Assembly: GCA_017871115.1 (NCBI GenBank) | Contig: JAFCIZ010000007.1 | Span: 682,001 to 746,000 of the forward strand | From: Cunninghamella blakesleeana | Taxonomy: Eukaryota > Mucoromycota > Mucoromycetes > Mucorales > Cunninghamellaceae | Length of the DNA stretch: 64,000 bases | Direction of reading: 5' to 3' | Part shown: one piece after another, positions 28,573 through 56,267 of the stretch | Layout of the letters: each line of letters starts with the position of its first letter | Position numbering within the stretch: the stretch's first letter is position 1 | Program-made: the position numbers and the translations under genes | Notes under the pieces: model-generated | The model's input: only the letters and a program-made list of their open reading frames with translations | Databases searched by the model: none | Told to the model about the DNA's origin: nothing

Positions 28573-30601
28573 TTACTGTACGGTTGGAACATGTACAGCC
28601 ACAGCGTTATAGCAAGTATCAGGATGATTATAAAACGCAGAGACTAAAGCACCAAACGTTTTAGCAACTCCATTTGAAGTTTTCACACCACGAATAGACT
28701 TATTGTTTAAATAATTTTTAACAATAACTCTAGTAGTAGATGTACGACGTGCCTTACGACCGAAATAATCCTTATTCTTTTTCATATTGTCAGGTAATAT
28801 AGATGCACCAAATTTTACCACTTCACTTTTTAAATGCATATCAATTCTATTCCAAAGAGTGCTTGGAGGTCGTTGGTCATTATCTTTATCATCACGAGGG
28901 CTTTTGAAATTGTTATTTTTAGTACGCCTAGTAATCCATTCACTTAATGATTGCTTCTTTGCATTATCAGACATACTAATTTTCTTTCTTTCATAATCGC
29001 TTTCCCGTACCCAATATACACGTCTACCACCGCCTCCAGAATTAAAGTCATCTTCAGAATCATCATCACTATATAAATATATATGTAATAATAATTATAA
29101 TATATCTTAAGATTAGCCATTATACATAAGCCATAATAATAATGAAAAAAAAAGAACAAATATATATATAAGAATACTTACGAATCACTCTGAGCTTCAT
29201 ATTGTTGCCTAATATAAGTAGAATAATTTGTACATCGATGATACCAATCCATTTCTTTCATTATTACAGCAATTTTATCAACGTCCCCTTTCCCTTTATC
29301 AATAAATTCATTACAGAGCGTAGAATCATATCGTAACGTCAAATTTTTTTCAGCCAGTTTTTCTACCAAAAGGGCCTCACGTTCCTTAGCTTCACGTTCG
29401 TGTTCTTCAACTATGTTTGAATAAATCAAATAAGGGAAAGAAAGAAAAAAAATAAATGAATCAAACCAATATATTTTTTTTTATTAAATAAATATATTTG
29501 TATCATATATGCTTTACATCTAATTCTTGAAGTTTCCGCTCTTTTATTCTGTATCATTTTGATTTTTTCCCTCTCTGCTAAAAGTCCAACATATCCACCA
29601 TGTTTCTCCAAAGCAACCTCAATCAATTCATTGACCTGATATAACTTCATTGGAGCAAAGCTACGGCCATAAGGATTACGAGCATCAATGTGGGATATAT
29701 GAGTGAGATCGTCATCATTTAGTTTTAATAAAGCTTTAGCTCTACCCTTGGTAATCTTTAGATCTTCCGCACGATAATCCTCCGTCATTTCTTCTCCCAA
29801 TTCTTTTTTTGCTATTTCTTCGATATTTTCAGGGTGCTGATGATAATAATTTTTACGGCATTGTAAACAAAGTTGTAAATAATGATCATGTTCTTCATGG
29901 ACTTTAGTTTCTAATGGAGACTGCGATCCGTATTGGATAGTAGTGATTTTATAACATTTTTCACATATTTTTCTAAGTTGACGGATTACTAAAGACATAT
30001 CACTATATCTATTTTGATGTTTTTTATTATTAACGGTTAAAATGTGGTTCCATATAGGTTGGCATCGAACGATGTTAAGTAGCTTTTTACTTGCTAAAGC
30101 AGTATTATATAAATCTTTGATAGTTAAATTTGATAGGATAGATCTTAAGATTTCCGGTGGTAAAGAGGCAAATCTTTTCGCTTTACTATTAACCACAGGT
30201 CGGCGCTTTCTGCGTAGTGAAGACGAGGGTGTGGAAAAGGAAGTGGAGACGGTAGAAGTAATGCTAGAAGTGGTTCCTTTTTCTTTTGTTTTTGCTTTTC
30301 CTTTTTGTTTTTTGTTACTATTATTTTTTGATTGTTTAGCTGCGCGTTTTCTTTTAAGAGGTTTGGTGGGTACAGTAGATACTGTAGTTATATCATTGAT
30401 ACTAGCAGAGGAGGTTGCTGGTGTATTATTTCCTCCATTTCGATTTTTACCTTGAATATCAATTACTTTTGGTTTGACTTTGCTTCTGGTCGCATATTTA
30501 TGTGTAGGTGGTGATACATTCTCTTTTGTGATTTGCTTAGAAGTAGATTCTTTAACTTTTTTAGTACTTTTTTTATTTTTTAAAGTTGCTTTAGGTGCCA
30601 T
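28573..30601 (-). CDS. F-box protein with zinc finger and XPA-C-like module
   Basis: Exons 29518-30601, 29182-29410 and 28573-29068 give 602 aa. A basic, disordered N-terminus (1-140) includes KRKRAAKQ-type nuclear signals. The F-box lies at about 143-187 (FASLPPEILRSILSNLTIKD). A CxxC pair at 213-216 (CEKC) and another at 245-248 (CLQC) could bind zinc. Residues 281-337 (ITKGRAKALLKLNDDDLTHI, then NPYGRSFAPMKLY and ALEKHGG) resemble the C-terminal DNA-binding half of XPA/Rad14 (ITKTEAKxxYLLKDxDL, KNP, MKLY, LExxG), in the same order after the zinc finger. A helical Glu/Lys region and an acidic DDDSEDDF segment follow. It could be an SCF substrate receptor for damaged chromatin. The XPA similarity was judged by eye, so that role is inference. 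Confidence 0.75.
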
Positions 30602-43415: not shown

Positions 43416-43511
43416 ATGACATCATTTGATGCACTATCACCTCAAAAAGGTACTTGGTATAAAATAAAATATAATAATTTAGAATTTAAATAATTAGTAT
43501 TATAGTTTTAA

Positions 43512-43546
<35 letters not shown>

Positions 43547-45313
43547 TTTACATCTTTCCTTTTTCCTTCTTTTTTATATAATATATATCAGACTTTTTAC
43601 CATTAATAGACAAAAATGTAATATTTATAATAATAAATGCAAATAGTTAATGGTTTATCTTTGATAACAATTTAATCAATAATATAAATTATACTTTATT
43701 TATATTTTTATATTTATTATTCCACATTTACATTTCTATCTTTATATACTTATAGAAAGAAACTGCTTTATCTTTATCAGATTCTGTAGCGTCTGCTAAT
43801 TCTTACACACCACGAAAACGACAATATTCACAAACAAAATCAAATATTTCAACTATATCAGTAGACAAACGCGGTAATAAATCAAGCAATTATTTGGTAA
43901 AGACTTGTAACAACAACAATATCAATGTTAGCAGTAGTAAAATGGTAAAAAAAATGGATGATATTCCTTATGGTTTAAGTGATGATGACGACGATGATGA
44001 TTTTACCGACAACAACAACATCAATAGTAATTCAGCACGAGTTAAAGATCAAAATATTATTCATGATCAACTCACTTCTTCAACAGCCCCACGAAAAAAT
44101 ATCCAAGCTCCTTCAATAAAAAATAGTCCAGATACAAAAGCACTTAGTAGTAGTCTTGTTACCGATGATGATTTTTCTTTAATAACCATATCCCCTATAC
44201 CACCTACTTCTTCTCCCTTTAATCAACTTAGCCAAATGGATGATTGTGGTAGCAGCAATAATAATAATAATAATACTAAAAGATCAAGTCCATTCTCTCA
44301 ATTCGATATGTTACCAACTCAATTATATGAACCAACAGATAATATAACAGATGTGAATGCTCCAACTCAATTATACAATGTCCATGATATACCAACACAG
44401 CCGTATGATCCTAATACAAATATAAATGCTGATTACGACATACCTACTCAACCTTATGATGTGAACGATCATTTAGCAGATGACTGTCCTACACAAATAT
44501 ATAGTCCAAATGAAAATATATCCAATAATAATATTCGCGATCTTCCAACACAGTTATACAATCCTAATGATGATATAGCACCTACTCAAATATATGATCC
44601 TTATGGTAATAGTATTCCAACCACTCAACTCGTTGATATTTATAATGATGAATATGAAGATGATGAAGACTTTTTCTTATTAGAAAATATGCATTCAACA
44701 GATATTAACAAAGCCAATCTTAATATTCATAATAAACACCATAATATACCCAATAATAATAAAAACAACAGTGATAACATTCATATTAGTACACAGGATT
44801 ATAATGATTATGGTGTAGGATATGAACGGGATATTTTGGATGATGATTCAGAAGATGAAATTAATAATATTAGTATAACAAAAACCTATAGGAATTATTT
44901 ATTACCAGTGAAAAAATTGCCAATGAAAAACAATAATATAAGAAAAAATCATCATAATGAAGATAGCGATTTAGATTTTCCATTATTAGGGTTTGATTCT
45001 GAACACGATATTACTGCAGAGAATAAAAATAATGATAAGGATGATAATAATGGTAATATATCACCAGAAAAAAGCAATGCATCGCTGCCATCTTCATCAA
45101 CGTCATTATCCATACTAAATAATAATATACTGCAATCACAAGAACAAGAACAACAACAAAAGAATATTATTAAAACCAGCACATCCAATAATGTAGATAA
45201 TAATGATAAAAAAAATAAAATCCAATCAAGTTTGGAAGAATTTTATTCATACTTATCATCGGGGAGTAGCATATCTACTGCCAAATCACCATCACCATCA
45301 TCACCATCATCAC

Positions 45314-45360
<47 letters not shown>

Positions 45361-45948
45361 CCTCCATTTCCTTCTTCATCATCACCTCTTAAAAAAAATA
45401 TGTCTTTATCACAACAATCATCCATATCTTCCTCTTCACCATTAAAAAAATTATCTTTAACAAAAAATACAAAGCGTACTACTTATTCATCAAATGACCC
45501 ATTGTGGATGTCGTCTTTATCACCGTCACCTTTGGAAGAAAAATCGAAAAAAGATCATGTATTGTTACAACCACAAAAGGAACAGAAATTGAATAAAATA
45601 GAAAAAAAAGAAGAAAGTAAAGAAACAGAAAAAGAAGAAAAAAAGAAGGAAAATGTTCATCATAATATTAAACAACCATCCTTATCCACCTTATCATCAA
45701 TAACAACAACAACAAATAATAACAATAACAATAATCCAAAACGAATTCGATTTCCTCGTTTAGGTATTTCGAAGCGCTCTCCTATATCGCCTATCCATAA
45801 ACATACACCTAATTTGGATCCAACTCATACTATTATTCCTTATCATAAATCAACATCTATAACACCTTTGACATCACCTTTATCAACACCATCAGTATCA
45901 CGTAAAACTTTGGGTATGAAAAAACGTAATAGGAATCCTTTAAAATGA
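43416..45948 (+). CDS. TQ-repeat protein with a RAD51-binding-like C-terminal motif
   Basis: Exons 43416-43449, 43592-43617 (26 nt) and 43756-45948 give 750 aa. The protein looks almost wholly disordered: acidic, Asn/Ser-rich, with a 20-plus Ser run from a TCA microsatellite. Two features stand out. Residues 207-312 hold eight tandem TQ units of form PTQ[LIP]Y[END] (PTQLYEPT, PTQLYNVH, PTQPYDPN, PTQPYDVN, PTQIYSPN, PTQLYNPN, PTQIYDPY, TTQLVDIY), an SQ/TQ-cluster arrangement typical of ATM/ATR substrates. Residues 688-702, RLGISKRSPISPIHK, match the RAD51-interacting motif of human RAD51AP1 (RLGLSRLARVKPLHP), with the key Leu/Ile and His at identical spacing. A basic C-terminus follows. A role as a recombination scaffold is inference; no enzymatic domain is seen. 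Confidence 0.7.
44314..44634 (+). repeat. Eight-copy degenerate PTQxY coding repeat
   Basis: Units start near 44314, 44362, 44392, 44443, 44488, 44545, 44581 and 44620. The spacing varies (about 10-19 codons) and the nucleotide sequence has diverged (CCAACTCAA, CCTACACAA and similar), while Thr-Gln and usually Tyr are kept. That suggests selection on the peptide rather than a recent DNA duplication. Confidence 0.85.
45288..45360 (+). repeat. TCA/TCACCA microsatellite encoding poly-Ser
   Basis: Tandem TCA with interspersed CCA codons encodes Ser/Pro, then a pure Ser run in the TQ-repeat protein. It is likely length-variable. Confidence 0.95.
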
Positions 45949-54320: not shown

Positions 54321-56267
54321 TTATGCATCTGTTGCCCATCTTGTAATATTTGTTGGACAATCTACATATTTCAATACAGCTTCTGTGATTTGAGCAGGTT
54401 CTAGCATTAATTTAGCCATACGATATTCTTTAGGACATTTTCCAATTTGCTCTACAGGACAAACTAATTCAAATGATTGTAAATTTTCAAAAGCCTAGTA
54501 ATTCGAATATATATGAAGATTTAAAAAATAATAAATAAATAATAAACATTTTTGTAAGCCAATAATTTTTTAACTTACTTTTAAAGCTACTGGCATTTTA
54601 TGTAACTTCATTCCAAAACCCATACCACGAACTTGAGTACGAGTCATAAATTCTTTATATTCATCATAGACCATTTGGAAATTGAACGTTTGAATATCTT
54701 TTTGAATAAGTTTTTTCATACTAACAATCAATACTAACTCCAATAAAGATACACCTATAATATGTACATAAATATATAAATGCGAGTTATTACTAATAAT
54801 AGATATAGATATATATAAATCATAATGACTATCACTTATTTGTTATTTACCTTTTAACATTTCTGTTTTTGAATCCGTACGTTGTTCAATACTTGCTTCT
54901 ATAAATTGAGATGCACTTAAAAATGGATGATCCGTACACAGCTGAGATACAGGTTCAAACTATATTTCAATATATCGTAGAAAAATAACAAAAATATATA
55001 TTAATGTTAATAATAAAAATTAATCCATATTTAATATAATATATAATCTCTTCTTTTCCTTTAATACTTTTTTTAATTAAAATGATATACTTTACACATA
55101 TTTTAAAAAACATACGAAGATCTTTTGTGATATCAAATATTCGACGTAAAAGAGCAACCATTGATGTATCTTCGAATACGCTCTATCGAAACAAATATAT
55201 ATACATTGTAAATGGTAACATGAGTATAAAATTTTTACAGATGTGATCATTATTCTTCCCATTATTTTTATTACCTCAACGGCTTGATTAAATTTAGTAA
55301 TAAAGGATTCATCAGCGATATCATTTGGAACAGTTAAAGCATCACGAGCCATTTCAACAAAATCACCAAATGTAGCAGGAGGGAATAAAAATATTTGACG
55401 ATGTGAAAATCTAGATTTGACACGTTTTTCTAAAAGATCCAAAGCATCCTATTTTTTTTTAAAAAAAAAAAGAAAAACATGTATCAACGGAACGATATCC
55501 AATTAACAATCACCACTTACTATTATTATTACTATTATTAAAATTGCTATCATTATTGAAAGGTAACCTACAATTCGACATGTTAAACCAATTACTGCCA
55601 ATGGATTTTGAGAACTTTGTGCTGCATCAAATAAATTATAAAGTAAAGATTGTTTAGGGTGTTGAGCAATGAGATCAAATTCTTCCAAGATAAATATAAT
55701 AGGTAAAGTGGATCGATCACCCTGTTTTAATAAAGATAAGATATACTCAAAAGATTCTGCAAAACTTGTCTATATATATATAATAGAATAAAATAAGAAT
55801 AAGAATAAATAAATAATAGAATTTTTATGATGTATTTGAACTAAACAAAAACAGAATACACTTACAAAACTACGTCGTTGATGTTGAATATGGCCTTGAA
55901 AAGCCATGAGCTGTCGCGCAATTTCAGTTAGAGCCAATCGATCTGTTGTTTCAGTTAAACCGTTCAATTTTATAGTAACAAAACCTTTTGGAAATTTTTT
56001 TGAAAGATCTTCTAAAATAAGCTTGATTAAAGTTGTTTTTCCAGTACCACGATTACCGATAACAAGACATGAATTACTTTCCCCTTTATTTATGGTTTGA
56101 AATAATAATTGGTGAAGTCGATCATATTCCTTTTCTAAACCAAATAATTTTCTTGGTAAAGATCTTTCAGATAATCGTGCTGTTAAATAACCCTTGATTT
56201 TTTTAATATCATTTTGAAGATCTTCTGTGCTATTTTCATTTATTTCGCTATGTTTCCTTTTTGTCAT
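54321..56267 (-). CDS. ORC4: Origin recognition complex subunit 4
   Basis: ORC4 is an AAA+ subunit of the complex that marks replication origins and loads MCM. Exons 55866-56267, 55572-55769, 55275-55448, 55096-55182, 54851-54959, 54579-54754 and 54321-54494 give 439 aa, nearly the human length. Walker A is GNRGTGKT (71-78), and Walker B is IFILEEFD (159-166). Family blocks include [58 protein letters not shown] (with the arginine-finger region) and the C-terminal FEPVSQ and VPLEL-type winged helix with MVYDEYKEF. There is no AT-hook extension as in fission yeast Orc4. It is convergent with RRP3 across 272 bp. The assignment is firm. Confidence 0.93.

Follow-up and report, generated by a model that had tools for sequence, protein, structure and literature searches.

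A disordered Cunninghamella protein with a constrained TQ array and a PIP box as a candidate phospho-docking scaffold in DNA damage or replication stress

A gene of the fungus Cunninghamella blakesleeana, located at positions 43416 to 45948 of the 64,000-nucleotide stretch analyzed here (the window; assembly GCA_017871115.1, contig JAFCIZ010000007.1, positions 682,001 to 746,000 of the forward strand), encodes a protein of 750 amino acids that includes a constrained array of threonine-glutamine (TQ) repeats, a match to the canonical PCNA-binding (PIP) pattern, and a C-terminal segment resembling RAD51AP1, in a chain predicted to be disordered. Our tentatively preferred reading, held with slightly less than even confidence, is that the protein acts as a phospho-docking scaffold in DNA damage or replication stress, operating in the manner of the MDC1 TQxF cluster while not itself being MDC1. 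The scaffold would be tethered to PCNA at replication forks through the PIP box QSSLEEFY, its TQ array would be phosphorylated by kinases of the ATM/ATR family, and each resulting pThr-Gln-[LIP]-Tyr would dock an FHA domain selective for an aromatic +3 residue. The reader would most likely be an FHA-RING ubiquitin ligase encoded in the same genome, which would then ubiquitylate nearby targets. The least certain step is that RLGIS...IH in the C-terminal tail may also bind Rad51 and so bring a ligase and a recombinase onto one scaffold. All binding and phosphorylation steps are ones that we infer.

An initial annotation, made from the sequence alone, had suggested a recombination or damage-signaling scaffold with a RAD51AP1-like motif. 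A damage-signaling scaffold is still the best reading, but a PIP box is present and the TQ[LIP]Y units suit FHA docking, which shifts the most likely reading away from RAD51AP1, and the nearest functional parallel would instead be the MDC1 TQxF cluster.

The array is composed of the following units:

44314 to 44595, forward strand: seven exact PTQ[LIP]Y units (T208, T224, T234, T251, T266, T285, and T297)
44617 to 44631, forward strand: a degenerate eighth unit PTTQL, which reads on as PTTQLV (T310)

Eight PTQ[LIP]Y units had originally been counted. Seven are exact, accompanied by PTTQLV and by a further TQxY site beyond the array, STQDY at T366, and the count of eight holds for TQxY sites. 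In total, the protein contains nine TQ, eight TQxY, and 14 S/TQ, and the first eight TQ are 10 to 19 residues apart in a region of predicted disorder. The number of TQxY sites was reached in none of 20,000 shuffles of the protein, where the maximum was three, and a density of 8 S/TQ per 100 residues was reached in one of 10,000 shuffles. The loose criterion for an S/TQ cluster, commonly put at 3 S/TQ per 100 residues, was uninformative here because most shuffles of the same composition reached it (6,562 of 10,000). Conservation was assessed against two relatives, P0001 and P0002 (741 and 744 amino acids, both named Cunninghamella echinulata), which share 93% and 82% identity with the exon 3 frame, respectively. 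Between residues 201 and 372, none of the 45 positions in the array cores was changed in either relative, compared with 28 of the 127 linker positions (Fisher P 8e-5, on three related sequences with non-independent positions). Searched at the DNA level, PTQ[codon NTN]Y, a pattern that leaves PTQPY uncounted, had 35 matches in the genome (31.9 Mb in 12 contigs), where five were inside the gene within 282 bases and 30 were scattered; its reversed control had 41 matches, and no second PTQxY cluster was found with this pattern. The TQ array is beyond chance and constrained, in support of the ATM/ATR-type array that had been proposed, and as a TQx[FY] repeat of the MDC1-like kind it is both beyond chance and conserved among close relatives.

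Regularly spaced TQ motifs could also serve as the strands bound by LC8 (dynein light chain), as in ASCIZ or Nup159, which would make the protein a multivalent LC8 scaffold. The spacing and the predicted disorder are in line with this, since multivalent LC8 partners are likewise disordered with several motifs each. However, TQT is absent from the nine TQ in each of the three sequences, TQP accounts for two of the nine, the single SQT (residues 45-47) is outside the array, and the invariant Tyr is left unexplained. We regard an LC8 scaffold as very improbable.

In the scaffold reading, the link to replication forks would come from a motif matching Qxx[LIM]xx[FY][FY], the canonical pattern for PCNA binding:

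45223 to 45246, forward strand: PIP box QSSLEEFY (residues 510-517)

The box was kept in all three sequences, again in a predicted-disordered region. An AlphaFold2 model of the 730 exon 3 residues, computed from an alignment of three sequences, had a mean pLDDT of 36.5 with no residue at 70 or above and no fold, in agreement with the disorder that had been expected. The only helix of the model, at model residues 493-500 (residues 513-520 of the protein), overlaps the PIP box, and the block containing it had the highest mean pLDDT of the model, at 51.

In all seven exact units, Thr and Gln are followed by a +3 Tyr that is invariant, as would be required by an FHA domain with a preference for a +3 aromatic residue. 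The TQxF motifs of MDC1 are described as phosphorylated by ATM and as recruiting RNF8 via its FHA domain, while Pellino FHA domains also bind MDC1 TQxF, and PELI1 binds a peptide with a +3 Tyr too (PMC11884936). A profile search of the fungal genome identified 20 FHA matches and 24 RING_11 matches, and six of the 20 FHA matches were found within 1 kb of a RING_11 match:

C3:499 kb: FHA and RING_11 (L008)
C2:3967 kb: FHA and RING_11 (L012)
C5:4588 kb: FHA and RING_11 (L014)
C7:1677 kb: FHA and RING_11 (L015)
C5:3200 kb: FHA and RING_11 (L017)
C1:6257 kb: FHA and RING_11 (L018)

At three of these six loci the FHA and RING were in a common open frame, including one frame where RING_11 scored 21.9 (cut-off 27) and another RING model was above its own cut-off. 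The true reader of the array could also be among the 14 FHA matches without an adjoining RING_11. A genome search for BRCT, conducted separately, returned eight matches. The six loci possibly represent an expanded family of Dma-type ligases, of which budding yeast has Dma1 and Dma2. These yeast proteins are described as RNF8 homologues whose role in genome stability needs both phospho-substrate binding by the FHA domain and RING ligase activity, and their precise targets "remain elusive" (PMC8165551). No RNF8 orthology is claimed for an FHA-RING frame that was compared with PDB chains, because its best 60 of 80 matches were mostly generic RING proteins.

The 14 FHA matches without a RING_11 neighbor would also suit a Rad9/Mrc1-type checkpoint adaptor, where the phosphorylated TQ array would recruit an FHA checkpoint kinase of the Rad53/Cds1 type and PCNA binding would position the adaptor at forks. 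Both Rad9 and Mrc1 have S/TQ clusters that are bound by kinase FHA domains, and the fungal protein resembles this layout and has the PIP box in addition. However, it is not Mrc1 itself because a separate MRC1-domain match lies elsewhere in the genome (C7:14373-14801), and neither the BRCT nor the Tudor domain of Rad9/Crb2 was found by Pfam in residues 21-750. The +3 Tyr also differs from the preferences of Rad53, which are Asp for FHA1 and Ile or Leu for FHA2. A checkpoint adaptor of this type is therefore considered unlikely.

The tail of the protein contains the segment on which the initial annotation had been based, followed by 48 more residues:

45757 to 45801, forward strand: RAD51AP1-like motif RLGISKRSPISPIHK (residues 688-702), aligned without gaps to RLGLSRLARVKPLHP of RAD51AP1

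The gapless alignment over these 15 residues was reproduced, and the hydrophobic residue after Gly and the His ten residues on are both present (I691 and H701). According to a structural study, R333, L334, and L336 of RAD51AP1 occupy one and L345 and H346 the other of two RAD51 grooves (PMC12704761). Their gapless equivalents R688, L689, I691, I700, and H701 were kept in all three sequences, with I691 being a conservative change from Leu336 and H701 being equivalent to His346. The conservation check that had been suggested for I691 and H701 thus came out positive in two of two relatives, and it is a weak one because both are close congeners (93% and 82%) and no more distant relative was found in the database searches. 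The motif scored 39 against RAD51AP1 under BLOSUM62, which was not reached in 3,000 shuffles (maximum 35). In 100 million random residues the same score occurred zero or five times depending on composition, or 0 to 0.28 times per 5.5 million residues, the assumed size of the proteome (11,000 x 500). An unrelated six-frame stretch within the window scored 29. The RAD51AP1 motif was also picked post hoc out of many known motifs, and the chance status of the C-terminal motif is borderline.

These matches are the basis for reading the protein as a RAD51AP1-like Rad51 cofactor, in which the C-terminal motif would bind Rad51 and phosphorylation of the TQ sites would control the binding. This reading overlaps the scaffold reading, and the odds assigned to the readings do not sum to one. 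The Rad51 of the fungus mostly keeps the surface contacted by RAD51AP1, with R95, T119, Q145, and D184 identical and F92 and I100 replaced by Val. Residues 92, 95, 100, 119, and 145 are likewise kept in the yeast Rad51 chains of 1szp, where D184 is outside the alignment. The surface comparison is non-discriminating and at most permissive because yeast keeps the five comparable residues, and it was rejected as evidence for binding. The fungal protein is about twice as long as RAD51AP1, and no other likeness between the two was noticed. No fungal protein was named among the papers listed in literature searches for relatives of RAD51AP1, and RAD51AP1, MDC1, and RNF8 have no occurrence in passages of a paper treating DNA repair in early fungi (PMC11061109). 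The similarity to the RAD51AP1 tail is real in its letters and is no proof of Rad51 binding. Binding of Rad51 by the tail is possible, although the likelihood is low, and we consider a RAD51AP1-like cofactor improbable as well.

A number of observations weigh against the scaffold reading, and those on the tail also weigh against a RAD51AP1-like cofactor. In place of P699, which is part of the RAD51AP1 match, the relatives have Leu or Ser, and because of this change their tails score only 29 and 30. Scores at these levels are expected by chance several times per proteome, at 14 to 27 (score 29) and 9 to 18 (score 30) per 5.5 million random residues. The profile check against the RAD51-interacting family that had been proposed turned out negative: PF15696 (gathering cut-off 25 bits) had no match at E<=10 in the exon 3 frame or in C-terminal pieces of 82 and 50 amino acids, in searches where the filters of HMMER discard most matches above about 0.1, and the human RAD51AP1 tail scored 57.6 bits in the same search as a positive control. 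A six-frame search of the genome with PF15696 also returned no match, as was the case for every control genome. RAD51AP1 has a second, upstream recombinase-binding site, WVPP, for which no counterpart was found, as the only Trp of the protein, W604, is followed by MSS. For the PIP box, its flanks vary in P0002 alone (at residues 506, 508, and 509 on the N-terminal side) and are unchanged in P0001, and the PIP pattern appears in about 1.3% of 20,000 shuffles. On the side of the reader, no RNF8 or CHFR chain was among the best 60 of 80 PDB matches of the FHA-RING frame, and the preference of fungal FHA domains for a +3 Tyr is an assumption, which makes the pTQxY reading itself conditional. Within residues 21-750, Pfam listed nothing above cut-off, neither BRCT nor FHA nor any other domain, and the only match listed was CBP4 at 10.9 bits (cut-off 28.8). 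In plants, BCP4 has TQx-hydrophobic repeats, but its TQ cluster did not bind NBS1 and has an unclear role (PMC11014961); this work was also the only one returned by a literature search combining TQxF, fungi, and FHA, which left most subscription journals outside its reach. Finally, the relatives found in the database searches are confined to Cunninghamella, and the evidence for conservation comes from close congeners only.

The gene itself is real, with three exons on the forward strand:

43416 to 43449, forward strand: exon 1 (MTSFDALSPQK and the first base of D12), spliced in frame to match the N-terminus of P0001 and P0002
43592 to 43617, forward strand: exon 2 (DFLPLIDKN), with a GT donor and the frame kept at 26 nt
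43756 to 45948, forward strand: exon 3 (residues 21-750 and the stop), a 730-codon open frame

Four ends were considered for exon 2, of which those at 23 and 26 nt were in frame, and only the latter was kept because of its GT donor and a peptide length matching the relatives. The exon 2 peptide DFLPLID is also found in both relatives, and residues 1-18 are identical at 18 of 18 positions across the three sequences. The gene coordinates and residue numbers (I691, H701) assigned earlier are correct under this model. Its neighborhood includes an arrestin-domain gene on the upstream side and a Pil1 gene on the downstream side. Searches of the protein database at E<=10 with the C-terminal region, the TQ region, and a full three-sequence profile identified only P0001 and P0002, with 17, 194, and 7,985 candidates scored (for the profile, only those with the most shared words); the searches were word-based, such that relatives sharing few 5-letter words escape, and the coverage of Mucorales proteomes in the database was without a control. 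Between P0001 and P0002 the identity is 82.4% (601 of 729 aligned residues), which equals the divergence between the protein of the window and P0002 (82.0% identity), and the Cunninghamella echinulata label may therefore span more than one species. Among solved structures, the whole frame had two matches, both to low-complexity stretches (E 0.11 and 5.7), and the C-terminal tail had two as well (chains with E 0.69 and 9.2). Rfam had no match at gathering score within the 64-kb window.

Apart from the array, near-invariant blocks at residues 1-18, 154-183, 361-412, and 556-609 mark further constrained short segments of the predicted-disordered protein, and the last three are as follows:

44155 to 44244, forward strand: acidic/hydrophobic block LVTDDDFSLITISPIPPTSSPFNQLSQMDD (residues 154-183), identical at 30 of 30 positions in the three sequences
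44776 to 44931, forward strand: block with STQDY (T366) and STQDYNDYGVGYERDILDDDSEDE...YRNYLLP.KKLPMKN (residues 361-412), identical at 50 of 52 positions
45361 to 45522, forward strand: block with the C-terminal end NDPLWMSSLS (residues 556-609, including W604), identical at 53 of 54 positions

By eye, LVTDDDFSLITISPIPPTSSPFNQLSQMDD is presumably similar to a SUMO-interacting motif (SIM).

The constraint on these blocks and on the array bears on a further alternative, where the product of the gene would be disordered, specific to its lineage, and unconnected with DNA repair, and the resemblances to motifs would be coincidental. The gene is AT-rich and of low complexity, no relative beyond the genus turned up in the database searches, and the short motifs were selected post hoc, all of which are consistent with such a protein. 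On the other hand, there is constraint on the array and on several blocks, and the TQ, PIP, and Rad51-like motifs agree in direction. We consider this alternative to be not very likely.

Elsewhere in the window, a 391-amino-acid open reading frame (ORF) on the reverse strand (29426-30601) has an F-box at residues 144-187 and a match to the XPA C-terminal domain at residues 283-322 (26.9 bits, cut-off 25), and is a possible F-box/XPA-type protein. At 55770-56267 on the reverse strand lies an exon of an AAA-type ATPase, which scored 42.3 bits for AAA_16 and 19.4 bits, short of the cut-off of 27, for an ORC-CDC6-like match.

With its clean TQxY array, such a scaffold would offer a concrete candidate partner in the question of how Dma-type FHA-RING ligases find their targets on damaged DNA, and the tail offers a case for whether a Rad51 contact of the RAD51AP1 type exists in fungi. 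In a more specific form, which we consider quite doubtful, the protein would be an independently evolved, MDC1-like adaptor of fungi that lacks BRCT and rides on PCNA and Rad51, with the PTQxY array, once phosphorylated by ATM/ATR, forming a platform for FHA-RING ligases (Dma/RNF8-type) on the recombination filament at forks.

Compared with known systems, the protein fails as a member of either MDC1 or RAD51AP1 on the features tested. It shares several TQ motifs in disorder with the LC8 arrays of ASCIZ and Nup159, but is without their TQT anchor. As in Mrc1/Claspin, it is S/TQ-rich, acidic, and possibly linked to PCNA and forks, whereas the MRC1 domain (PF09444) is absent from it and matched elsewhere in the genome. 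A gapless RLG[LI]S[KR]...[LI]H close to the C-terminus, with the named contact residues kept, is shared with RAD51AP1, in contrast to the tail having no PF15696 match, no WVPP, no other likeness, and 48 residues past the motif. Several TQx-hydrophobic repeats are in common with the plant BCP4, but not its tandem BRCT. Unlike MDC1, the fungal protein is about 750 amino acids in length, has Tyr in place of the Phe of MDC1, carries Pro at -1 in every one of the seven exact units, and was not found by Pfam to contain an N-terminal FHA or a C-terminal tandem BRCT in residues 21-750. The likeness to the MDC1/RNF8 system is in the TQx-aromatic repeats carried in a disordered stretch and in the FHA-RING loci of the fungal genome.
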